NCBI RefSeq assembly: GCF_036203305.1
Contig: NZ_CP108131.1
Span: 7,068,001 to 7,132,000 of the forward strand
Reading direction: 5' to 3'
Length of the DNA stretch: 64,000 bases
Source: Streptomyces sp. NBC_00190
GTDB taxonomy: Bacteria; Actinomycetota; Actinomycetes; Streptomycetales; Streptomycetaceae
The notes below the pieces were generated by a model that did no database searches, had not been told where the DNA came from, and saw nothing but the letters and a program-made list of their open reading frames with translations. A program made the position numbers and the translations under genes. Shown here piece by piece: positions 31,598 through 41,445 of the stretch (the first letter of the stretch is position 1; the number at the start of each line of letters is the position of its first letter).

Positions 31598-33022
31598 GTG
31601 ATCGAACGGATCTGGCTCCACCCACCTCTCGCCTTCGCCCGCCTGGGCCCGTCCCCCACCCCGTGCGGCAATTACCACTACGGCGAAAGCGACCTGTCGC
31701 CCCGGGGCACGGGCAAGACCACCGTGGTGCCCGCGCCCACCTTCGAAGTCACCGATGACGGCACCCTGACGGAGCGGCAGCCCGATCCCGGGGAACGGGT
31801 CCGGTTCAAGGACGTCAACGGCTTCCGGCCGATCTGCCCCTTCTTCGAACTGCACGGCACCTGGACGTCGGCCGACGGGCAGCGCCACACCGACGAGCCG
31901 GTCACCGTCGACGTCCTCACCGAATTCGGCATCGATCTGGCCGACGTGAAGTGGACGGTGAAGGTCGCCAACCTCAAGGCGCACCAGTGCACCCGCTCGC
32001 CCGGCGACCGGATCGAGGCCGCCGTCGAACTGAGCGGCGACCACCACCTGCGGGAACCGCTGAAAGGACGGTCGCCCGCCGGAGCGGACCGGCCCCTCGT
32101 GCCGCCGGGGCAGAGCGTGCCGCTCGGCTCCGTCCAGCTGCCCCGCCCGGGCGGCGGGTTTCCCGAGCTGCGGCTGCGCTTCACGCCCGGCACGGGGGTC
32201 GTGTACGGCCCGAGCAACCTGCTCGACCGGACCAGCCGGTACCTCCTGCCGGAAGAGCGGTTGTTCCTGGCGCCGGACGCGGCCTGGTGCGGGTTCACCC
32301 TTTCCGGCGCCACCGACGCGCGGACCTTTCCCGGAGCGCTCTTCGCCGGATCGACGCCCGAGGACGGCGGAGTGAGCCTCGGTCTGGTCGACGACGTGTG
32401 CGACGGCCTGGTCGGCGTCACGCTCGGAGGCCTGACCGCCCGCGCGCGGATCGTCGTCACACCGCCGGACTTCGCGCCCGACCGCCGGCCCTTCACCTCC
32501 CTCGCCGACGGGCTGGCGGACCGGGTCCAGCGGGAGGAGGTGAGCGACCCCGTGTACATCACCGCGAACCGTGACCTGACGGCGCTGGAAGTGCGCGACC
32601 TGTTCGAACGGGTTCTGGAGGCCATGGACGCGGTCAACGTGGACGCCCAGAACGACCGCGCGACCCTGGAGAACGTGCGCAGGGCCCGGCGCCTGGGCCT
32701 GCCCGAGGACGAGGCCCGGGAACGGACCTTCGGTCCGCCGGACCCACTCCCGGGGGTGACGCTCCCCCTCACCGAGCGCGGCCGCCGGCGGCACCGGAGG
32801 TTCGTGGCACTGGAGTTCCTGGAAGACCTGTTCCGGGAACGGCCCGAACTCCTCCGGCAGGTCATCAGGACCCCGGTGGAGGAGCAGCGGTGGCACGACC
32901 GCCGCATGCCGGTCGCGGTACGCGGCTCCGACGCCTACCCCATGCACCTGACGCGTCGCCAGTACAACCTGCTGGCGGGCTGGGTCAGTTCGCTGCGGGA
33001 GAACGTGGAGGAGGGCACATGA
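31598..33022 (+). CDS. LodA/GoxA-like N-terminal half (split quinoprotein, 474 aa)
   Basis: The sequence follows the N-terminal two thirds of LodA/GoxA quinoproteins: IERIWLHPPLAFARLGPSPT (family pattern RIHPAIGIARVGNS), VRFKDVNGFRPICPFFELHG (FKDADG-IKRQAARFRIYG), VKWTVKVANLKAHQ (WTVHLANKKA), LVDDVCDGLVGVTL (DDVSDGPVTAxV), IVVTPPDFAPDRRPF, and it ends at MHLTRRQYNLLAGWV (LTLTPTQYALLQRWA). In typical LodA proteins the chain then continues into the catalytic part; here it stops. The missing part is encoded two genes downstream. No cysteine lies in the last 200 residues, so this half alone cannot form the quinone. Start GTG 31598 has CGGAG upstream; its stop overlaps the next ATG (ATGA). Assignment is by motif reading, without an alignment. 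Confidence 0.75.
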   Translation: MIERIWLHPPLAFARLGPSPTPCGNYHYGESDLSPRGTGKTTVVPAPTFEVTDDGTLTERQPDPGERVRFKDVNGFRPICPFFELHGTWTSADGQRHTDEPVTVDVLTEFGIDLADVKWTVKVANLKAHQCTRSPGDRIEAAVELSGDHHLREPLKGRSPAGADRPLVPPGQSVPLGSVQLPRPGGGFPELRLRFTPGTGVVYGPSNLLDRTSRYLLPEERLFLAPDAAWCGFTLSGATDARTFPGALFAGSTPEDGGVSLGLVDDVCDGLVGVTLGGLTARARIVVTPPDFAPDRRPFTSLADGLADRVQREEVSDPVYITANRDLTALEVRDLFERVLEAMDAVNVDAQNDRATLENVRRARRLGLPEDEARERTFGPPDPLPGVTLPLTERGRRRHRRFVALEFLEDLFRERPELLRQVIRTPVEEQRWHDRRMPVAVRGSDAYPMHLTRRQYNLLAGWVSSLRENVEEGT

Positions 33023-34458
33023 GCCTCCTGTTGCAGATCGGGCGCCGCCCACCGGAACCGGAGACGGAGCCGGTATCCGGGCCGCGCGGCCTCGGCGCCG
33101 AGACCCGGGTCGTCCGCAGTGCCCACGGCACCCACCTGTTCCTGGCCGACGGCAGCCGGATCTACGACCTGCCGGAAGCCGCCGCCGCCCGGCTGGAGCG
33201 CTGGGCGGCCACGGCACACACACCCGCGCAGGACGCCGCCCTCGCCGCCGACCTGGGCCTTCCGCTGTGGGGCGCCGCGCCCGGACTGCCCGCCCCGCGC
33301 ATCGACGGCACCCCGGCCGAAGTACCGCCCCTGTCCTCGCTGTCGCTCAACGTGATGCAGGCCTGCAACCTCAGCTGCGGTCACTGCTACGCCGACGAGG
33401 GCCGCTTCGGCGGCTCCGCCCGGGCCATGCCCCGCGAGACCGCCTTCGCCGCCGTGGACCGGCTGCTCGCGGAGGCCGCACCCGGAGCCGGGGTCGTGGT
33501 CGGCTTCATGGGCGGCGAACCCCTGCTCGCCCGGGACCTGGTCCACGAGGTGGTCCGGTACGCGGTCGGGGCCGGCGAGGACAGCGGGCACGCGGTCCGC
33601 TTCGCCCTCACCACCAACCTGACCACCGTCCGGCCCGCGGACGCCGAACTCTTCGCCGCCCACCCCTTCACGGTGGCCGTCAGCCTCGACGGCGACCGTG
33701 CCGGGCACGATGCGCTGCGCCGGGCACCGGGCGGCGGCAGCGCCTACGACCGACTGCGTACCGGACTGGCGGTGCTGGCCCGGTACGGGCGGCCCCGGCA
33801 CCTGTCGGCGCGGGTCAGCGTGACGCCGTACACAGGGCGGCTGCCGGACATCCTGGAGCACGGGATCGGCCTGGGCTTCGACGAGGTGGGCTTCGCGGCG
33901 GTGGTGAGCGCGCCGGATCCGGCGTACGAGATCGACACCGCGGCCTTCACCGGCTTCCTCGACGGGATGGTCGAGTGCGGTGAGAAGGCCCTGCGCGAGC
34001 TGTCGGCGGGCCGCCCGTACCCGTTCGGGAACTTCCAGACCGCGATGTACGAACTCCACACGGGTGGCCACCGCCCCTACCCGTGCGGCGCCGGCGCCGG
34101 TTACCTCAGCGCCTCCGCCGAAGGCGGCCTCTACGCCTGCCACCGCCTGGTCGACGACCCGGACTTCGCCATGGGCTCGCTGGCCGACGGACCCGACCGG
34201 GCCGCCCGGGAACGCCACCTGGCCGCCCGGCACGTGGACCGGGCCGAGCCGTGCCGGTCCTGCTGGGCCCGCTACCTGTGCGGCGGCGGCTGCTACCACG
34301 AGGTCAGCCGGCGCGGCCGGCCCGGCTGCGACTACATCCGCGGCTGGCTCGACTTCTGCCTGCGCGCGTACGTCGAACTCACCGAGGCGGCACCGGGGTT
34401 CTTCGCGCTGCCGCCCGTATCCGACCTGCCGAGCGACCCGGCCGCCCTCGCCCGCTGA
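33019..34458 (+). CDS. Radical SAM/SPASM protein-modifying enzyme
   Basis: The 479-aa protein has an N-terminal domain of about 100 residues (GTHLFLADGSRIYDLPE), then the radical SAM cluster motif QACNLSCGHCYADEG (C116, C120, C123), the SAM-binding GFMGGEPLLA and the beta-strand FALTTNLTTV. A SPASM domain with many cysteines follows (YPCGAGAGYLSASAEGGLYA with ACHRLV, then PCRSCWARYLCGGGCYHEV and GCDYIRGWLDFC), giving two auxiliary Fe-S clusters. SPASM enzymes such as AnSME, PqqE and QhpD modify peptide or protein side chains; QhpD cross-links Cys to acidic residues in a quinohemoprotein subunit. Its position between the two LodA-like halves, coupled by ATGA to the first, makes one of those halves the likely substrate (inference). 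Confidence 0.88.
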   Translation: MSLLLQIGRRPPEPETEPVSGPRGLGAETRVVRSAHGTHLFLADGSRIYDLPEAAAARLERWAATAHTPAQDAALAADLGLPLWGAAPGLPAPRIDGTPAEVPPLSSLSLNVMQACNLSCGHCYADEGRFGGSARAMPRETAFAAVDRLLAEAAPGAGVVVGFMGGEPLLARDLVHEVVRYAVGAGEDSGHAVRFALTTNLTTVRPADAELFAAHPFTVAVSLDGDRAGHDALRRAPGGGSAYDRLRTGLAVLARYGRPRHLSARVSVTPYTGRLPDILEHGIGLGFDEVGFAAVVSAPDPAYEIDTAAFTGFLDGMVECGEKALRELSAGRPYPFGNFQTAMYELHTGGHRPYPCGAGAGYLSASAEGGLYACHRLVDDPDFAMGSLADGPDRAARERHLAARHVDRAEPCRSCWARYLCGGGCYHEVSRRGRPGCDYIRGWLDFCLRAYVELTEAAPGFFALPPVSDLPSDPAALAR

Positions 34459-34474
34459 CCTGAAGGAGCCGACC

Positions 34475-36373
34475 ATGGACCAGCCGATCCCCGGGAGCGC
34501 GGGCGTCTCCACGCCCGCGGGGAAGATCTTCCCCCGCAACCTCACCGCCCGCGCCGCGCACAGGGTGGCCGGCAACCCGTCCGGCTCCCGCCCCGAGAGC
34601 GGTGTCGACAACTGCTTCCCCGGGCTGGAGTTCGACCAGCGCAACCTCGACAAGGCCTTCTTCCGCGGGCTCGTCTTCGACTTCCACCACGACACCGGAT
34701 CCCGCTTGCTCGCCGTCAAGGGCGGGGTCGCCGAGGAACAGGGGATCTCCGACGCCGACCTGGGGGACAGCACCGGGGACGACGAACAGCGGCTGCACCT
34801 GTGGGCCGTGTGCGGGCGTACCACCGTGGACCAGGCAGAGGCCGAGGCGCCGGTCTTCCACGCGGTCGACCTGGACGGCCCGGGGATGTGGCGGCTGGTG
34901 CACGACCTGCTGCCGGGGACGATCTCCATCGTCGTGGGCCGGGGTTCCGGCAGCCGGTCGCCCGGCGCCTTCTGGGTTCCCGGCGGCCTGGGCAGCTGGC
35001 GGACACAAGGCCGGAGCGCGGTGCAGCGCGATGACGCGGGCGTGCTGGAAGTGGCCATCCTGACCGCCGAGCGGGCCGACTACCTGGACGAGGACGGGGT
35101 CATCGAACCGGACGTGTACGAGCCCGGCGACCTGACCCGCAGCCTGTGCGCGCCCTGGCAGTACGACTTCCGGGAGTGCGGCTGCTACTACTGGGCCGCC
35201 TCGAAACCCGACATCTCCGCCACATCCGGCGGCGAGTACCGCAACCTCAACTTCCAGCGCAGCGACCGCACCACCGTGCCACCCGCCCCGGACCTGACCA
35301 CCTACCTGGAGCGCGGGCCGCTCGAACTCGACCACCCCGAACTGATCATGAACTGGAACGTGCTCCCCGTCGTCCTCAACGGGCGCGAGGACGACGCCCT
35401 GGGCGTGCCCGCCCCGCTGGACCTGCCCCTGATGGAGCCGCAGGACGTCATCAGGGAACTGACCCGCCTCGCCGTCGTCGAGCACGCGCTGTGCCTCGAA
35501 TACCTCTACGCCCACTACTCGCTCGACGCTCCGATGACCCTGCCCGAGGACACCCCCGAGGACGTCCCGGTCCGGCGCGTCTTCGCGGCCGCGCAGGAGG
35601 TCTTCGGGGTGGCCGAGGACGAGATGCGCCATCTGCGGTGGGTCAACGAGATCCTCGGCGTGCTGGGGCGCCCGCTCCAACTCGACAGGCCCGCCGACGA
35701 CTTCGTCATCCAGCAGCAGACCGGTCACCAGTTCAGGCTGGAGCCGCTCACACCCGAGCAGCTGGAGTGGTTCATCGCGGTCGAGAAACCGAGCGCCCAG
35801 ATCGACCCGGACGGCATCGACGGGATGTACGTGCGGCTGCACCACACCATCGTGAACAACCCGAGCGCCTTCCCCCAGGCCGAACGGCTGGCCCACCTGA
35901 TCAAGCTCATCATCGACGAGGGCGATGACCACTACCACCGGTTCACGGCGATCCGCGGACATCTGGCGGGTCTGGACCCGGACGGCTACCTGCGCCGACT
36001 GACGCCGCCGAACGACACGCTGGACGTGGAGCTGCTCCGCCTCGCGGACCTCAACTACGCCATGGTGCTGGGCGCGTTGCGCGCCACGCTGGAGGCGGGC
36101 GACAGGGCGGGCGGACTCCTGAGGGCCCAAGCGGTGCGCTCCATGCAGAACCTGCACGAGCTCAACCACCGGCTCGCCGCACGCGGAGTGGCACCCCGGT
36201 TCGCCGCGCCTTCCCCGGCGCTGTCGGACGGGCAGGCGCCCCGGGCCGCCGCGCGGGCCGTGGGCGAGGTGGTGCGTTCCATCCGTTCACTCGCGGACGG
36301 CAGCCTGCAGGAGCAGATGGACCGTCAAGAGGAGGGCGCGCGCGCCTTGGTCGCGGCGTGCAGCCTGCAATGA
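34475..36373 (+). CDS. LodA/GoxA-like catalytic half fused to a ferritin-like domain (632 aa)
   Basis: Residues about 40-310 match the C-terminal catalytic part of LodA/GoxA: VDNCFPGLEFDQRNLDKAFF (family GGPFFPGIE region), then SLCAPWQYDFRECGCYYWAA (family LAVPWQADFxxC-xWWPAQRPD). D231 and C235 have the D-x3-C spacing of the CTQ site (Asp512/Cys516 in LodA), and W294 in IMNWNVLPVV lies 59 residues on, close to the 65-residue Cys-Trp spacing in LodA. Residues about 320-500 are a ferritin-like domain of the VioB/iminophenylpyruvate-dimer-synthase type: VVEHALCLEYLYAHYS, EDEMRHLRWVNEILGVLGRP (E383, H386), IIDEGDDHYHRF. The tail is helical. ATG 34475 follows GAAGGAG. The fold predicts a protein-derived quinone oxidase plus a diiron-type module; substrate unknown. 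Confidence 0.75.
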   Translation: MDQPIPGSAGVSTPAGKIFPRNLTARAAHRVAGNPSGSRPESGVDNCFPGLEFDQRNLDKAFFRGLVFDFHHDTGSRLLAVKGGVAEEQGISDADLGDSTGDDEQRLHLWAVCGRTTVDQAEAEAPVFHAVDLDGPGMWRLVHDLLPGTISIVVGRGSGSRSPGAFWVPGGLGSWRTQGRSAVQRDDAGVLEVAILTAERADYLDEDGVIEPDVYEPGDLTRSLCAPWQYDFRECGCYYWAASKPDISATSGGEYRNLNFQRSDRTTVPPAPDLTTYLERGPLELDHPELIMNWNVLPVVLNGREDDALGVPAPLDLPLMEPQDVIRELTRLAVVEHALCLEYLYAHYSLDAPMTLPEDTPEDVPVRRVFAAAQEVFGVAEDEMRHLRWVNEILGVLGRPLQLDRPADDFVIQQQTGHQFRLEPLTPEQLEWFIAVEKPSAQIDPDGIDGMYVRLHHTIVNNPSAFPQAERLAHLIKLIIDEGDDHYHRFTAIRGHLAGLDPDGYLRRLTPPNDTLDVELLRLADLNYAMVLGALRATLEAGDRAGGLLRAQAVRSMQNLHELNHRLAARGVAPRFAAPSPALSDGQAPRAAARAVGEVVRSIRSLADGSLQEQMDRQEEGARALVAACSLQ

Positions 36374-37398
36374 CATCCCCGGCGCTGCGGACGCCTGCCG
36401 CTCCCCACGCCTCCGCGACCGTCGATATCGCCGGATCGGGACTTGCCGAACTGACCTGCGCCTGGCTGCTGCTCGCCCGTGGCCACCGGGTCCGTCTCCG
36501 GTCGCCCGGGCCGGCGGCAGGCCCCCGTCCGCTGCTGCTGGGCGGACCCACGATGGACCTGCTGCGCTCCCTGTGGGGCGGCGAGCTGCCGACGCACTGC
36601 CATCAGCTCACACACCGCCAGGTGTACTGGGGGCCCGACGCCGACGCGACCGGCCGGCGCATGCCCCAGCCGGCCACCGTCGTGGACGGCGCCCGCCTCG
36701 CCGAACACCTGCTCGGCCGCCTCGCCGCCCGGCACCCGGACGTCCTCTCCGAGACGCCCGGCCCACCGCGGTGGACCGTCACGGCCGCCGGTTCGTCCGG
36801 TCACTGGACGGCCGGGCGGCGCCACCTCCTGGCCGGGGAGGCCCCGCTGGCGCCAGGTACGGACGAGAGCACCGCCCGGCTCGTCTGCACCGAACGCGCG
36901 TGGCTGCACCTCACCCCACTGGGCGACGGGCGCGCCCTGCTCCAAGCCATGGTCCCCGGTCCGGCCACCCGGCCGACGGAGCTGCTGGAGTCGCTGCTCG
37001 CGGGCTCGGCTCTGGCCCCCGCTCTGCGGCACGCCCCCCGGACCGCCGTAGCCCTGCCCGCCGCCCCGCGCCTGCACCGCACCCCGGCGGTGCCCGGCCG
37101 GATCCTGGTGGGCGCCGGCGCGATCCGCTACGACCCGCTCAGCGGCACCGGATCGGCCCAGGCCCTGCGTACCGCCATCCTTGCCGCGGCCTCCCTCCAC
37201 GCCATGGTCACCGGGGCGCCGCAGGGACCCCTGTGCACCCACTACACATCGCGCCTGCGCAGGGCCTTCCGCGCCCACCTCGCCACCTGTGCCCGGCTCT
37301 ATCCGCAGGCGTTCGCCTCTCCTTCGTGGCAGCACGAGATCGACGCCGGCCGGCGGCAGGCTCGCCTGCTCCGGGGTGATGGGGATCCTGCGGACTGA
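36370..37398 (+). CDS. LodB-like FAD-dependent oxidoreductase
   Basis: The 342-aa flavoprotein has an N-terminal dinucleotide fold (TVDIAGSGLAELTCAWLLLA) and the second FAD-binding motif VGAGAIRYDPLSGTGSAQAL, which matches the GDAAxxFDPLSGxGL motif of LodB-like and tryptophan-halogenase-like flavoproteins. LodB is required to form the cysteine tryptophylquinone of LodA, so this is the expected maturation partner for the split quinoprotein. The first fold has GSGLAE in place of the usual GxGxxG, and the protein is somewhat short. ATG 36370 overlaps the previous stop codon (ATGA). It is the last gene of the operon. Confidence 0.78.
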   Translation: MTSPALRTPAAPHASATVDIAGSGLAELTCAWLLLARGHRVRLRSPGPAAGPRPLLLGGPTMDLLRSLWGGELPTHCHQLTHRQVYWGPDADATGRRMPQPATVVDGARLAEHLLGRLAARHPDVLSETPGPPRWTVTAAGSSGHWTAGRRHLLAGEAPLAPGTDESTARLVCTERAWLHLTPLGDGRALLQAMVPGPATRPTELLESLLAGSALAPALRHAPRTAVALPAAPRLHRTPAVPGRILVGAGAIRYDPLSGTGSAQALRTAILAAASLHAMVTGAPQGPLCTHYTSRLRRAFRAHLATCARLYPQAFASPSWQHEIDAGRRQARLLRGDGDPAD

Positions 37399-37455
37399 GG
37401 ATCCTCGCGCGCGCATCCTTCTGATCTGCCGCGCCGTGGCATCCGCGGCCCGTGC

Positions 37456-37665
37456 TCAGAGCGCCGCGGCGACCTCGTAGCCGGCCTCGACGATGGCGGC
37501 GCGGATCAGACGGTCGTCGAGCGGGGCGCCGCTCACCGTGACGGCCTGCGCGTCGAGGTCGACGACGACGCCGCTCACCCCGGGCACCTGATTGACCTGC
37601 TCGGTGATGTGGCCGGCACAGTGGCCGCAGGTCATGCCGGTCACGCGGTAGCGCTGCTCATCCAT
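37456..37665 (-). CDS. copZ: CopZ-like copper chaperone (HMA domain, 69 aa)
   Basis: A single heavy-metal-associated domain with the copper site MTCGHCAGHI (CxxC) and the normal beta-alpha-beta-beta-alpha-beta length. ATG 37665 has GAGGAGA upstream. It probably hands Cu(I) to the CopA ATPase encoded 1 kb away on the same strand. A Cys-rich gene is divergently encoded upstream, so they may share control. Confidence 0.92.
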   Translation of the reverse strand: MDEQRYRVTGMTCGHCAGHITEQVNQVPGVSGVVVDLDAQAVTVSGAPLDDRLIRAAIVEAGYEVAAAL

Positions 37666-37946: not shown

Positions 37947-38162
37947 ATGACCGATATCAATTCCCTGGCACCAATAGCGACGTTCTGCGGCAAGTGCGAC
38001 TGCGGCTGCCCCCAGCTGTTCGTCGACGAGTCCGCGCCCGTCGAAAGGCGGGTCGTCATCACCGACGACTTCGGACAGCGCGTGGAGATGAGCGCCGACC
38101 AGTTCGGCTCCCTCATCGAGGACGCGAAGGCGGGCAAACTCGACGCCGTCGCGGTCGCCTGA
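37947..38162 (+). CDS. Small Cys-rich protein, CxxCxCxC (71 aa)
   Basis: The protein starts MTDINSLAPIATFCGKCDCG and has four cysteines in the pattern CxxCxCxC, followed by a Pro, a short beta segment (RRVVITDDFGQRVEM) and a helix (FGSLIEDAKAGKL). There is no signal peptide. The cysteine cluster suggests Cu(I), Zn or Fe-S binding, and the position between copper genes favours copper; this is inference. I do not recognise a named family. ATG 37947 is used, with GTG 37944 as the alternative; the ribosome site AAAGGAAAG lies inside a leader hairpin. Confidence 0.75.
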   Translation: MTDINSLAPIATFCGKCDCGCPQLFVDESAPVERRVVITDDFGQRVEMSADQFGSLIEDAKAGKLDAVAVA

Positions 38163-38180
38163 GGCGACGGGGCCGCCCCC

Positions 38181-38207: not shown

Positions 38208-38721
38208 GGACCACGACCGCGATCGTCTCGACCGGTCCGCTGTGGCGGAAGTGCAGGACGAAGGGAATCATCTGCCCCGCCCGCCAGCGTTCCTTCACCC
38301 TCACCATCACGTCCACCTCGAAGGGGGACATGCTGACGGTGCCCCCGGCCGGGATGGCGAGGGGACCGGTCATGCTCATGGAATCGGCCCCCGTGCCCGT
38401 GCTCCGGTGCCGACTCAGCATGGTCTGCTCCACGGCCGGGGAGGTGACGGCTACCAGCTGGTCGTCCGCGCCGCCCAGGTTCGAGATCCGGAAGAACGCC
38501 GCAGTGTTCTCCTTGTCGGCGTACGGGAGGAAGACGCGGCCGCCGTCGACCGCGACGCGGGGTGGGGTGCCGGCAGCTCCGGAGCCGGCCCAGGCCGTCA
38601 GCCCGCACAGGCCGACCAGGCACGCGATCACAGGAACGGCCGCGGCCAGGTACGCCTCACGCAGACGCCGCTGCGTCGGCCGCCGGCCCTCCACCACTTC
38701 CCGTCGAGCGGAATCGGTCAT
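38194..38721 (-). CDS. Membrane-anchored PCu(A)C-like copper chaperone (DUF461)
   Basis: The 175-aa protein has an N-terminal membrane anchor (about 22-46, AYLAAAVPVIACLVGLCGLT) and an extracytoplasmic PCu(A)C-like cupredoxin domain: FFRISNLGGADDQLVAVTSP, EQTMLSRHRSTGTGADSMSM, IPAGGTVSMSPFEVDVMVRV. Such proteins carry Cu(I) to cytochrome oxidase or take part in periplasmic copper handling. The usual H-x-M pair is altered here (DVM in place of HVM), but Met and His ligands remain in the first loop. Its ATG overlaps the CopA stop codon (ATGA), so it is co-translated with the pump. Confidence 0.82.
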   Translation of the reverse strand: MTDSARREVVEGRRPTQRRLREAYLAAAVPVIACLVGLCGLTAWAGSGAAGTPPRVAVDGGRVFLPYADKENTAAFFRISNLGGADDQLVAVTSPAVEQTMLSRHRSTGTGADSMSMTGPLAIPAGGTVSMSPFEVDVMVRVKERWRAGQMIPFVLHFRHSGPVETIAVVVRPGS

Positions 38722-41024
38722 CGTTCACTTCCTCCCCGGGCGCGGCGGGCCCGTGCACCGGCGGTCCGGCCCGCGGGGTCCCAGCCGCGAAGGCGCAGGC
38801 TGTTCCCCACGACCAGGAGCGAGCTGGCCGACATGGCCGCCGCGGCGACCATCGGGTTGAGCAGCCCGACGGCTGCCAGCGGGACGGTGACGAGGTTGTA
38901 GCCGAACGCCCAGACCAGATTGACCCGGATGGTCGCGAGGGTGCGCCGGGCCAGGCGGACCGCGTCCGCGACCGCCTCCACGTCACCGCGCACGAGGGTC
39001 ACGTCGGCCGCCCCGATGGCGACGTCCGTACCGCTGCCCATGGCGATCCCGAGATCCGCGGCGGCCAGCGCGACGGCGTCGTTGACACCGTCGCCGACGA
39101 CGGCGACCCGTCGGCCCTCGTCCCTCAACCGCCTTACGAGCGCGGCCTTGTCCTCCGGGGTGCAGCGGACATGGAGACGGGTGATCCCGAGCGCGGAGGC
39201 GACGGCCTCGGCGGGGGCCTCGCGGTCGCCGGTGGCCAGGACCGGCTCCACCCCCAGCCGCCGAAGGCGGTCGACGGCCCGGTAACTGCCCGGACGCACG
39301 ACGTCCCCGAGGCCGACCAGCGCTTGGCCGGCGCCGTCGACCCTTACCAGGACGGGGGTCAGCGCGGCGGCCTCGGCGGCGGCCAGTGCCTTCGCCAGCG
39401 CCTCGGGGAGGTCGGCGCCCGGCGCGCACACCTCGACCACCCGGCCGTCGACCACACCGCTGACACCCGCCCCGGGGGTGGCCCGGAAATCCGTCACCGG
39501 CGGCAGAGTCCCACCGGGCAGGTTCCGCCGCGCGTACGCGGCCAGCGCGATTCCGAGAGGATGCTCGGAGCCCTGCTCCACCGATCCGGCCAGCCTCAGG
39601 ACGGTTTCCCGGCCCAGGCCTTCGGGGAGCGGCGTGAGCTGGGCGACGGTCATGTGCCCGGTCGTGAGGGTGCCGGTCTTGTCCAGTACGACCGTGTCGA
39701 CGTGCCGCAGAGCCTCCAGGGCCCGCGGTCCCCCGACCAGGATGCCCAGTTGGGCGCCGCGGCCGGTCGCGGCCAGCAGTGCGGTGGGAGTCGCGAGGCC
39801 GAGAGCGCAGGGGCAGGCGACGACGAGGACGGCCACGGCCGCGGTCACCGCGGGCTGCGGATCCGCACCGGCGCCGAGCCAGAAGCCGAGCACGGTGACC
39901 GCCAACGACAGGACGACGGGGACGAAGACGCCCGCCACGCGATCGGCCAGACGCTGCGCCGCCGCCTTGCCTGCCTGGGCATCGGTGACCATGCGGGTGA
40001 TGCGGGCGAGCCGGGTGTCCGCGCCGACCGCGGTGGCCCGTACGACGAGCAGCCCGCCCACGTTCACCGCCGCGCCGATCACGGTCCGGTCCGGCCCGAC
40101 CTCGACGGGATCGCTCTCGCCGGTCAGCAGGGACAGGTCCAAGGCGGAGTTCCCGGACACCACGACGCCGTCCGTGGCGATGCGCTCCCCGGGCCGGACG
40201 ACGAATTCCTGCCCGACGGTGAGCTGTTCGACCGGGATCCGCCGATCCTCGCCGTTCTCGCGGACGGTCACGTCCTTGACCGCCAGCGCGGAAAGCGATC
40301 GCAACGCCGCGCCCGTACCGCGCCGTGCCCGCGCTTCCAGGAACCGGCCGGTCAGGACGAACAGCGGTACGCCGACCGCCGCTTCCAGATAGACGTGGGC
40401 GACCTCGCCTCCGGCGGAGGGGAGGAGGGTGAAGGGCATCCGCATACCCGGCTGCCCCGCGCCGCCGAGGAACAACGCGTACAGGGACCAGAGGAACGAG
40501 GCGACGACACCGAGCGAGACCAGCGTGTCCATGGTGGCCGCCGAGTGCCGCAGGCCCCGCAGCGCGCGGACATGGAAGGGCCAGGCGCTCCAGACGGCCA
40601 CGGGTGCGGCGAGCGCGAGGCACAGCCACTGCCAATTGCGGAACTGCAGAGCCGGGACCATCGACAGGACCATGACCGGCACACAGAGCAGCGCCGTGAT
40701 CAGCAGCCGCTCGCGCTCGATGCGGTCCTCCTCCTTCCTCTTCTCCGGTACCGGATCCGCCGACCCGTTCTCCGCCTGTCCCCGGGGCTCGGGAGGCGCG
40801 TGGACCTCAGCTGTGTACCCCGCACGCTCGACCTCCGCCACCAGCTCGTCCGCCGTGGTGCCGGGCGGATGGATCACCCGCGCCCGGCCGGTGGCCAAGT
40901 TGACCGTGGCGCTGACCCCGTCGATCTTTCCGAGCCGCTTCTCCACGCGGTTGACGCAGGCCGCACAGGTCATGCCGCCGACGGTGAGGTCCGTGGTGGA
41001 GGCGGTCGCCAGCTCCGGGGTCAT
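38718..41024 (-). CDS. copA: Copper-translocating P1B-type ATPase CopA
   Basis: The 768-aa pump starts with one HMA domain (GGMTCAACVNRVEKRLG), followed by eight expected helices. It has the actuator LLTGESDPVE, the P1B intramembrane motif VVACPCALGLATP (CPC), phosphorylation site VVLDKTGTLTTG, the SEHPLG motif of P1B pumps and hinge VGDGVNDAVALAAADLGIA. The NPMVAAAAMSASSLLVVGN segment in the last helices fits Cu(I) pumps. ATG 41024 overlaps the stop of the upstream 83-aa gene, giving a three-gene coupled copper operon. Confidence 0.93.
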   Translation of the reverse strand: MTPELATASTTDLTVGGMTCAACVNRVEKRLGKIDGVSATVNLATGRARVIHPPGTTADELVAEVERAGYTAEVHAPPEPRGQAENGSADPVPEKRKEEDRIERERLLITALLCVPVMVLSMVPALQFRNWQWLCLALAAPVAVWSAWPFHVRALRGLRHSAATMDTLVSLGVVASFLWSLYALFLGGAGQPGMRMPFTLLPSAGGEVAHVYLEAAVGVPLFVLTGRFLEARARRGTGAALRSLSALAVKDVTVRENGEDRRIPVEQLTVGQEFVVRPGERIATDGVVVSGNSALDLSLLTGESDPVEVGPDRTVIGAAVNVGGLLVVRATAVGADTRLARITRMVTDAQAGKAAAQRLADRVAGVFVPVVLSLAVTVLGFWLGAGADPQPAVTAAVAVLVVACPCALGLATPTALLAATGRGAQLGILVGGPRALEALRHVDTVVLDKTGTLTTGHMTVAQLTPLPEGLGRETVLRLAGSVEQGSEHPLGIALAAYARRNLPGGTLPPVTDFRATPGAGVSGVVDGRVVEVCAPGADLPEALAKALAAAEAAALTPVLVRVDGAGQALVGLGDVVRPGSYRAVDRLRRLGVEPVLATGDREAPAEAVASALGITRLHVRCTPEDKAALVRRLRDEGRRVAVVGDGVNDAVALAAADLGIAMGSGTDVAIGAADVTLVRGDVEAVADAVRLARRTLATIRVNLVWAFGYNLVTVPLAAVGLLNPMVAAAAMSASSLLVVGNSLRLRGWDPAGRTAGARARRARGGSER

Positions 41025-41272
41025 CGCGCACCGTCCGTCCGAGTGCCACCCGCGCCGCTGTGACCGTGCGGCCCGGGGCTGCCGCTGTCGGGGGTGGCGC
41101 CGGTCCCGCTGGAGCGCATACCCGGTGCGACCGGACCGGCCGAGGCACCGATCACGTACGACAGGCAGAACATCAGCCCCAGCAGGACCAGGAACCCCGC
41201 GAGCGCCGGCGGCGGCACCCACCGCCGCAGCGAGAGGTCCGTGCCGCCGGGGGACTGCTGTGGTTGCGTCAT
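41021..41272 (-). CDS. Small single-span membrane protein in copper operon (83 aa)
   Basis: One membrane helix (about 22-44, PPALAGFLVLLGLMFCLSYV) is followed by a Gly/Ser/Pro-rich tail with GPHGHSGAGG. I recognise no family. It is the first gene of the copA operon, coupled by ATGA to copA. The two His residues and Met residues in the tail could bind copper, and a role as a CopA accessory is inference. Start ATG 41272 (MTQPQQSPGGTDLSLRRW). Confidence 0.7.
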   Translation of the reverse strand: MTQPQQSPGGTDLSLRRWVPPPALAGFLVLLGLMFCLSYVIGASAGPVAPGMRSSGTGATPDSGSPGPHGHSGAGGTRTDGAR

Positions 41273-41430
41273 TGCCACTCCAGTGACGGGCGCGGTCCGG
41301 CGCCCTTCGCTCGTCAGGTGCTGCGGTACGCAGACCGCTGCCGAGGGGGCATCCCGCGGTGCGCTGATGCCGTCCCCACGAGTAGTCGGGGCGAGGCGTC
41401 GATGAGTTCCCGCCGGTCCGGGTACCTTGT

Positions 41431-41445
41431 TGCACATTAATTGCA
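41431..41445. promoter_or_regulatory. AT-rich palindrome upstream of tsaD
   Basis: TGCACATTAATTGCA has TGCA/TGCA arms around an AT-rich centre and sits 26 nt before the tsaD start, in the only AT-rich part of the 199-bp divergent region with the copper operon. The size and the TG...CA ends recall Fur/Zur-type 7-1-7 boxes, but the match to the actinobacterial Zur consensus is incomplete. Confidence 0.4.

Follow-up and report, generated by a model that had tools for sequence, protein, structure and literature searches.

The operon and its genes

The window analysed here, a 64,000-nucleotide stretch of the Streptomyces sp. NBC_00190 genome (NZ_CP108131.1, positions 7,068,001 to 7,132,000), carries on its forward strand a four-gene operon. 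The operon probably encodes a two-chain, LodA-like enzyme dependent on cysteine tryptophylquinone (CTQ), together with its own maturation enzymes of the type known from quinohemoprotein amine dehydrogenase (QHNDH). Gene 1 (31598..33022, + strand; 474 amino acids (aa), GTG start) encodes the N-terminal half of a LodA/GoxA-type quinoprotein (LodN), and gene 3 (34475..36373, +; 632 aa) the C-terminal half (LodC) fused to a ferritin-like domain. Between the two lies gene 2 (33019..34458, +; 479 aa) for a QhpD-type radical S-adenosylmethionine (SAM)/SPASM enzyme, and the operon ends with gene 4 (36370..37398, +; 342 aa), whose product is a flavoprotein and a short relative of QhpG.

An earlier interpretation made from the DNA letters, here called the sequence-only reading, had described the four genes as coupled by ATGA or very short spacing. 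This is borne out, as the junctions of genes 1/2 and 3/4 are ATGA overlaps and genes 2 and 3 are 16 bases apart. Its proposal that genes 1 and 3 are complementary LodA/GoxA halves, flanking a radical SAM gene and followed by a flavoprotein gene, likewise agrees with the arrangement found. The GTG start of gene 1 fits an alignment of 33 homologues, most of which have the same beginning, and gene 3 has a single match within its own 8.9-Mb genome. The same gene arrangement recurs in other organisms, so an assembly error is ruled out.

Two chains probably in place of one LodA

The product of gene 1 follows the N-terminal part of LodA/GoxA, as the sequence-only reading had it: its family aligns with 12 single-chain LodA/GoxA proteins over 275 columns (hhalign, E = 6.9e-15), and its predicted structure, which aligns to LodA residues 2-420, has the fold of the N-terminal part of LodA. 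The claim that gene 3 encodes the C-terminal part is supported for the C-half, which spans residues ~17-310; the fused ferritin-like domain had been overlooked. In a profile alignment the C-half family matches single-chain LodA/GoxA over 85 columns, around the cofactor only (E = 3.3e-7), and a wider C-half set does so with E = 1.9e-8. A structure comparison of the gene 3 model returned no LodA; since ferritin-like chains filled its match list, profile comparison was used for the C-half instead.

Profile searches, proposed with the earlier reading as a check, gave a divided answer. Single sequences stay below the curated Pfam cut-offs (LodA_N, E = 0.12; LodA_C, 24.5 bits against 25) and the NCBIfam equivalog cut-offs (GoxA, 15.1 of 750 bits; LodA, 17.5 of 600 bits), whereas the family-level alignments are clear. 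As far as sequence comparison can tell, the likeness of both halves to LodA/GoxA is real but remote.

When the C-half is modelled alone, confidence is low at residues 1-52, 221-237, 275-278 and 299-307, cofactor site included, as would be expected if a partner completes the site. The divergence of N-half, C-half and radical SAM enzyme is correlated over 19 loci (r 0.92-0.97, with none of 2000 permutations as high), reaching r 0.968 between the two halves. Alignments and models support the view that N-half and C-half together cover one LodA, encoded not as a single polypeptide but by two genes that a 1.4-kb radical SAM gene separates.

The cofactor site

The C-half contains the motif C225-x5-D231-x3-C235-x-C237-x2-W240-x5-D246, in which the catalytic aspartate and the CTQ cysteine and tryptophan of LodA/GoxA are kept. 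C235 (35177..35179, +), the predicted CTQ cysteine, is aligned to LodA C516 and GoxA C682. W240 (35192..35194, +), the predicted CTQ tryptophan, shares its column in the profile alignments with the tryptophans of LodA (YWW581PP) and GoxA (SWW697). LodA C516 was counted from a printed alignment and the GoxA numbering was taken from alignments; C682 and W697 we take to be the CTQ pair of GoxA. W294, which the sequence-only reading had named as the quinone tryptophan, aligns with a later tryptophan and was ruled out in favour of W240. The two CTQ residues are separated by 5 positions in the C-half, compared with 65 in LodA and 15 in GoxA. D231 (35165..35167, +) corresponds to LodA D512, GoxA D678 and QhpC D33, i.e., to the aspartate that is conserved in tryptophylquinone enzymes, QhpC Asp33 included (PMC7876137).

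Two further cysteines, which the sequence-only reading had not noted, bracket this site. C225 (35147..35149, +), at position -6 of the catalytic aspartate, is the proposed thioether donor to D231, and C237 (35183..35185, +), at position +2 of the CTQ cysteine, the proposed donor to D246 (35210..35212, +). Both are invariant in our alignments A1 and A3. Of the 241 C-halves examined, that of gene 3 among them, 240 have the cysteine pair and D246. All 121 C-halves of the fused type (gene 3 and 120 listed of 602 matches) have both cysteines, D246 and W240. The motif is also found in 119 of 120 free-standing C-halves (120 listed of 1333 matches), the exception being a 189-aa fragment that lacks it. 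Tryptophan at 240 and aspartate at 246 are common to all 240 motif-bearing C-halves.

Putative maturation enzymes of the QHNDH type

Gene 2 encodes a CX3CX2C motif at residues 116-123 (CNLSCGHC) and more cysteines from residue 356 on. Its SPASM domain (TIGR04085) scores 50.1 bits against a cut-off of 27, which places the protein among the radical SAM/SPASM enzymes, and its nearest solved structure by sequence is CteB (5wgg, E = 1.6e-36). The best NCBIfam family, an affinity overlooked in the sequence-only reading, is QhpD (TIGR03906; E = 2.3e-77, 260.6 bits) and the second best is PapB (E = 6.6e-62), an order that recurs in all four radical SAM enzymes tested from split-operon relatives (loci L034, L036, L037 and L039). 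QhpD makes thioethers between cysteine and aspartate or glutamate, and PapB between cysteine and aspartate (PMC8172795).

The flavoprotein had been described as LodB-like in the sequence-only reading. We dropped this label for QhpG-like on the score order in gene 4 and in nine of nine single-chain controls. Gene 4 matches QhpG with 64.2 bits (E = 1e-17), GoxB (NF038174) with 22.8 bits (E = 4e-5) and LodB (NF038171) with 16.7 bits (E = 3.1e-3), the cut-offs of the latter two being 400 bits. QhpG was the best family for 10/10 flavoproteins from split-operon relatives and exceeded its cut-off in five (L022, L037, L039, L041, L063), whereas for the nine control flavoproteins, which lie beside single-chain LodA/GoxA, GoxB came first in five and LodB in four, with QhpG at best second.

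The extra cysteines and the radical SAM gene

The extra cysteines, if they are cross-linked by the radical SAM enzyme, are expected where its gene is present and should be missing where the gene is missing. All 19 scored loci that contain a QhpD-type gene have both cysteines, and the 22 LodA/GoxA loci scored as lacking such a gene in the DNA viewed have neither. In these 22, position -6 is occupied by Ala, Gly or Ser (Ala in LodA and Gly in GoxA, as counted from alignments) and the +2 residue is never Cys. The genome of the window also encodes a single-chain LodA (L042), which has Ala/Ser at these positions and no QhpD-type gene in the surrounding 10 kb.

The 22 control loci were viewed over 6.0 to 19 kb each, so that a more distant gene could be missed in the short L048, L055 and L043. 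Mesorhizobium huakuii L071 is counted among them, its nearby radical SAM gene being non-QhpD. Three rows were dropped, namely L024 (identical to locus L001), L023 (a match to the ferritin-like domain only) and L058 (a degenerate site without Asp-x3-Cys). L032 (Streptomyces), with a radical SAM fragment and both cysteines, stands outside the 19-locus set. A second, single-chain LodA of L063 was missed by the search patterns and lies outside the scoring, and the second LodA of L020 (Ala/Ser), which adjoins a split operon in one locus, is counted in neither group. In a tree, the split C-halves form a single clade with support 100/100; its rows were pre-sorted by the -6 cysteine, so the tree bears on the clade status of the groups and not on the association of cysteines and radical SAM gene.

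Two forms of the operon and their distribution

The operon occurs in two forms. Form A has the order LodN - radical SAM - LodC::ferritin - flavoprotein and was found in the window, in six other Streptomyces loci (L001, L002, L017-L020) and elsewhere in Streptomyces NBC_00073 (L038), Nostoc UHCC 0302 (L034), Rhizobium sophoriradicis (L036) and Microvirga (L070); Nostoc UHCC 0926 (L035) has the first three form A genes. The sequence-only reading had suggested a search for the same four-gene order in other genomes, and the order is indeed kept there, Streptomyces included. Form B, with the order LodN - LodC - radical SAM - flavoprotein, is present in Rhizobium leguminosarum, two Bradyrhizobium, Mycetohabitans, Embleya and two Streptomyces genomes. 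The placement of the radical SAM gene between the halves thus describes the window and its form A relatives but not form B, where this gene comes after both halves.

Among 392 Streptomyces genomes, at least 10 match at E <= 1e-10: six by a full-length form A (own genome included), two by form B and two by the ferritin-like domain only. Few candidates were scored per genome and these counts are lower bounds. A set of 296 genomes across the phylum gave two matches, the own genome and one genome by its ferritin-like domain only. One contig scan yielded two loci. At E <= 1e-5, gene 3 has at least 602 matches, some of which may rest on a single domain, and the free-standing C-half has 1333.

Several loci depart from the two forms. 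The N-half gene of Nostoc UHCC 0302 (L034:5019-6653) starts with a ferritin-like domain (PF12902, residues 17-243, E = 1.5e-39) and only its later part (216-466) matches the N-half family, as if a ferritin-like domain had replaced the first part. On a Bradyrhizobium plasmid (L063:2654-17071), a form B split operon is followed ~6 kb on by a single-chain LodA with its own GoxB-like flavoprotein; the split-operon flavoprotein scores 272.6 bits with QhpG and that of the single-chain LodA 194 bits with GoxB. L020 (G348) has its N-half gene distributed over two frames, and likewise the terminal part of its fused C-half gene, through decay or sequence error; a second LodA-like gene follows. L071 (5977-8621) contains two adjacent LodA/GoxA pieces without the extra cysteines, which reflect either a different type of split or the breakage of a gene, and its non-QhpD radical SAM gene lies 2.4 kb downstream. 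Peptidase genes (serine protease, C25, S8) are located near the rhizobial split operons L036, L037 and L039; QHNDH maturation uses the protease QhpE (PMC7876137).

The ferritin-like domain

The C-terminal domain of gene 3 belongs to the ferritin-like family PF12902 both by the Pfam cut-off (E = 8.5e-13) and by fold, with residues 317-577 matched in the model. E336, E383, H386, E482 and H486 are invariant among 39 sequences and look like metal ligands. Proteins of this family include CC_0557 (PDB 3hl1) and VioB, the model of which matches the domain weakly (E = 0.0057). VioB works after an amino-acid oxidase. In the window the domain is fused to the quinoprotein C-half, while in form B a separate ferritin-like gene lies upstream in six of seven loci, none being seen in L021. 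PF12902 genes have also been noted beside fungal lodA genes (PMC4417212). Its role is a guess: the fused domain might work on the H2O2 or imine product, or provide metal.

Proposed maturation and its alternatives

In the interpretation that we consider probable, a two-chain LodA-like CTQ enzyme and QHNDH-type enzymes for its maturation are encoded together in the operon, the C-half being first cross-linked by thioethers and then oxidised. We infer this chemistry from sequence. The QhpD-type radical SAM enzyme would act on the free C-half and form the thioethers C225-D231 and C237-D246 (Cys sulfur to Asp methylene), which would bracket the CTQ site. Because the chain is split, the C-half would stay accessible to this enzyme until it joins the N-half. 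The QhpG-type flavoprotein would then hydroxylate W240 held in the C237-D246 ring, whereupon C235 would add to complete CTQ, and the two halves would assemble to give an oxidase active on amines or amino acids. In the QHNDH system, QhpG dihydroxylates the unmodified tryptophan of cross-linked QhpC (PMC7876137).

The proposal draws on the subunit QhpC, in which QhpD makes the thioethers C7-E16, C27-D33 and C41-D49 and CTQ consists of C37 and W43 (PMC8172795); C41-D49, W42-W43, C37 and D33 are also described in PMC7876137. QhpC and the C-half have in common a Cys-x5-Asp-x3-Cys..Cys..Trp-x5-Asp pattern round CTQ, with the same spacing from Cys to Asp (6), from Asp to the CTQ cysteine (4) and from Trp to Asp (6). 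As in QHNDH, Cys-Asp pairs (C225/D231 and C237/D246) bracket the CTQ site, and QhpD and QhpG are the families closest to genes 2 and 4.

A number of observations weigh against this interpretation. Genes 2 and 4 both score below the curated cut-offs for QhpD (453 bits) and QhpG (240 bits). L035 has no annotated flavoprotein on the same strand beside the operon; an upstream open reading frame (ORF) on the opposite strand resembles gene 4 weakly (E = 4.3e-4). The CTQ cysteine and the second cysteine are 2 positions apart in the C-half and 4 in QhpC, the second cysteine and the tryptophan 3 and 2, respectively, and the second ring would comprise 9 residues (C237/D246) instead of 8 (C41/D49). The third QhpC cross-link, C7-E16, is without a clear counterpart, C47 not being invariant. 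A search with a 38-residue motif found LodA and GoxA and no QHNDH subunit, so the likeness to QhpC is one of residue spacing, as given in PMC8172795 and PMC7876137, and not of matching sequence. The 22 control loci include several close relatives (L044-L047). Because the split C-halves form one clade, the link between cysteine pair and radical SAM gene is, as read from the tree, one long-kept evolutionary event and not a repeated gain.

Among the alternatives, the one that survives best, though we regard it as unlikely, is a split LodA that acquires its CTQ as LodA/GoxA do, with a first hydroxylation that needs no flavoprotein and a second one by the flavoprotein, while the radical SAM enzyme makes another modification not needed for CTQ, namely a cross-link in the ferritin-like domain or elsewhere in the C-half, e.g., at C47. 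LodA/GoxA have the Asp-x3-Cys site and the tryptophan of W240 as well, and C47 is nearly invariant in the fused form to which the window belongs. However, C47 is replaced in three of ten rows of A3, all of which come from operons with a radical SAM gene, and form B keeps this gene though its C-half is without a ferritin-like domain. The flavoprotein, moreover, is QhpG-like and not LodB/GoxB-like, and it is at the CTQ site itself that the two extra cysteines accompanying the radical SAM gene are found.

We give less credence to the possibility that C225 and C237 bind metal or form a disulphide, the radical SAM enzyme having a small molecule or an unlinked peptide as its substrate. Cysteine pairs are often metal-binding, and LodA maturation reportedly appears copper-dependent (PMC7876137). 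Yet the radical SAM gene adjoins the C-half gene in the 19 split loci, its two closest families, QhpD and PapB, act on Cys- and Asp-bearing proteins or peptides, and an invariant aspartate follows each cysteine after 6 or 9 residues; no conserved small gene was noticed in the annotated operons, where no search was aimed at one. Least probable of all is that the halves do not make one LodA, the N-half being a binding protein of its own and the C-half, with its fused ferritin-like protein, a free-standing electron carrier of the QhpC kind: the halves are separate genes in 19/19 split loci and the CTQ region is compact and QhpC-like, but they match consecutive, non-overlapping parts of LodA (N-half 2-420; C235 at 516), diverge in step, and leave the cofactor site of the C-half model poorly defined when the partner is absent.

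Relation to known systems

LodA (the L-lysine 6-oxidase of Marinomonas mediterranea) and GoxA (the glycine oxidase of Pseudoalteromonas luteoviolacea) share with the window's proteins the N-half fold, the domain order, the catalytic aspartate, the CTQ cysteine and tryptophan, the PGDLT..PWQxD motif and a downstream flavoprotein gene. They differ in that the known ones are single chains without the +2 cysteine, have LodB or GoxB as partner and, among the 22 relatives scored, no QhpD-type radical SAM gene beside them. In QHNDH the substrate of cross-linking is a 9-kDa subunit, whereas the proposed substrate in the window is half of a LodA fold. None of QhpA, QhpB, QhpC and QhpF is encoded by the four genes, to which the search for the first three was confined. 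The ranthipeptide maturases PapB and CteB, the second-best family and nearest structure of gene 2, act on short precursors of ribosomally synthesized and post-translationally modified peptides and not on half an oxidase.

A survey of LodA-like proteins covered lengths of 481 to 1413 aa and described split lodB genes (PMC4417212). A split lodA is not described in its sections 6 and 7, and the term radical SAM is missing from its main text. The literature searched, with subscription papers and preprints mostly outside its scope, contained no report of a split LodA or of the proposed chemistry, and a report elsewhere is possible. Some C-halves are already labelled 'LodA/GoxA family CTQ-dependent oxidase' by NCBI, so the link to the LodA family is partly known to annotators.

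On balance, and with only a little more confidence than an even chance would warrant, we propose that a large group of bacterial quinoproteins has a LodA fold that is cut in two, apparently to allow cross-linking and oxidation of the cofactor half before assembly, and that contains a CTQ segment resembling QhpC and cross-linked by a radical SAM enzyme. The routes to CTQ have been treated as separate, i.e., LodA/GoxA with a chain and a flavoprotein, and QHNDH with a small subunit, a radical SAM enzyme and a flavoprotein. A LodA-type enzyme matured by QHNDH-type helpers would mean that the two can combine, and would provide a natural case of a radical SAM enzyme working on half of a large oxidase. 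Many proteins whose present annotation is hypothetical or ferritin-like would also acquire a meaning. With its ferritin-like protein, fused or encoded nearby, the enzyme would form a two-step oxidase system.

Genes downstream of the operon

Just downstream of the operon, the window encodes a small protein with the heavy-metal motif GMTCGHC (37450-37665, - strand) and a P-type ATPase with GMTCAAC (38718-41435, -). A link of the operon to these neighbouring copper genes was considered and rejected, as the copper-binding motif is found in ORFs of the window and in none of 18 other loci scanned. A 71-aa protein with CGKCDCGCP (P0365) also follows the operon (37947-38163, +).

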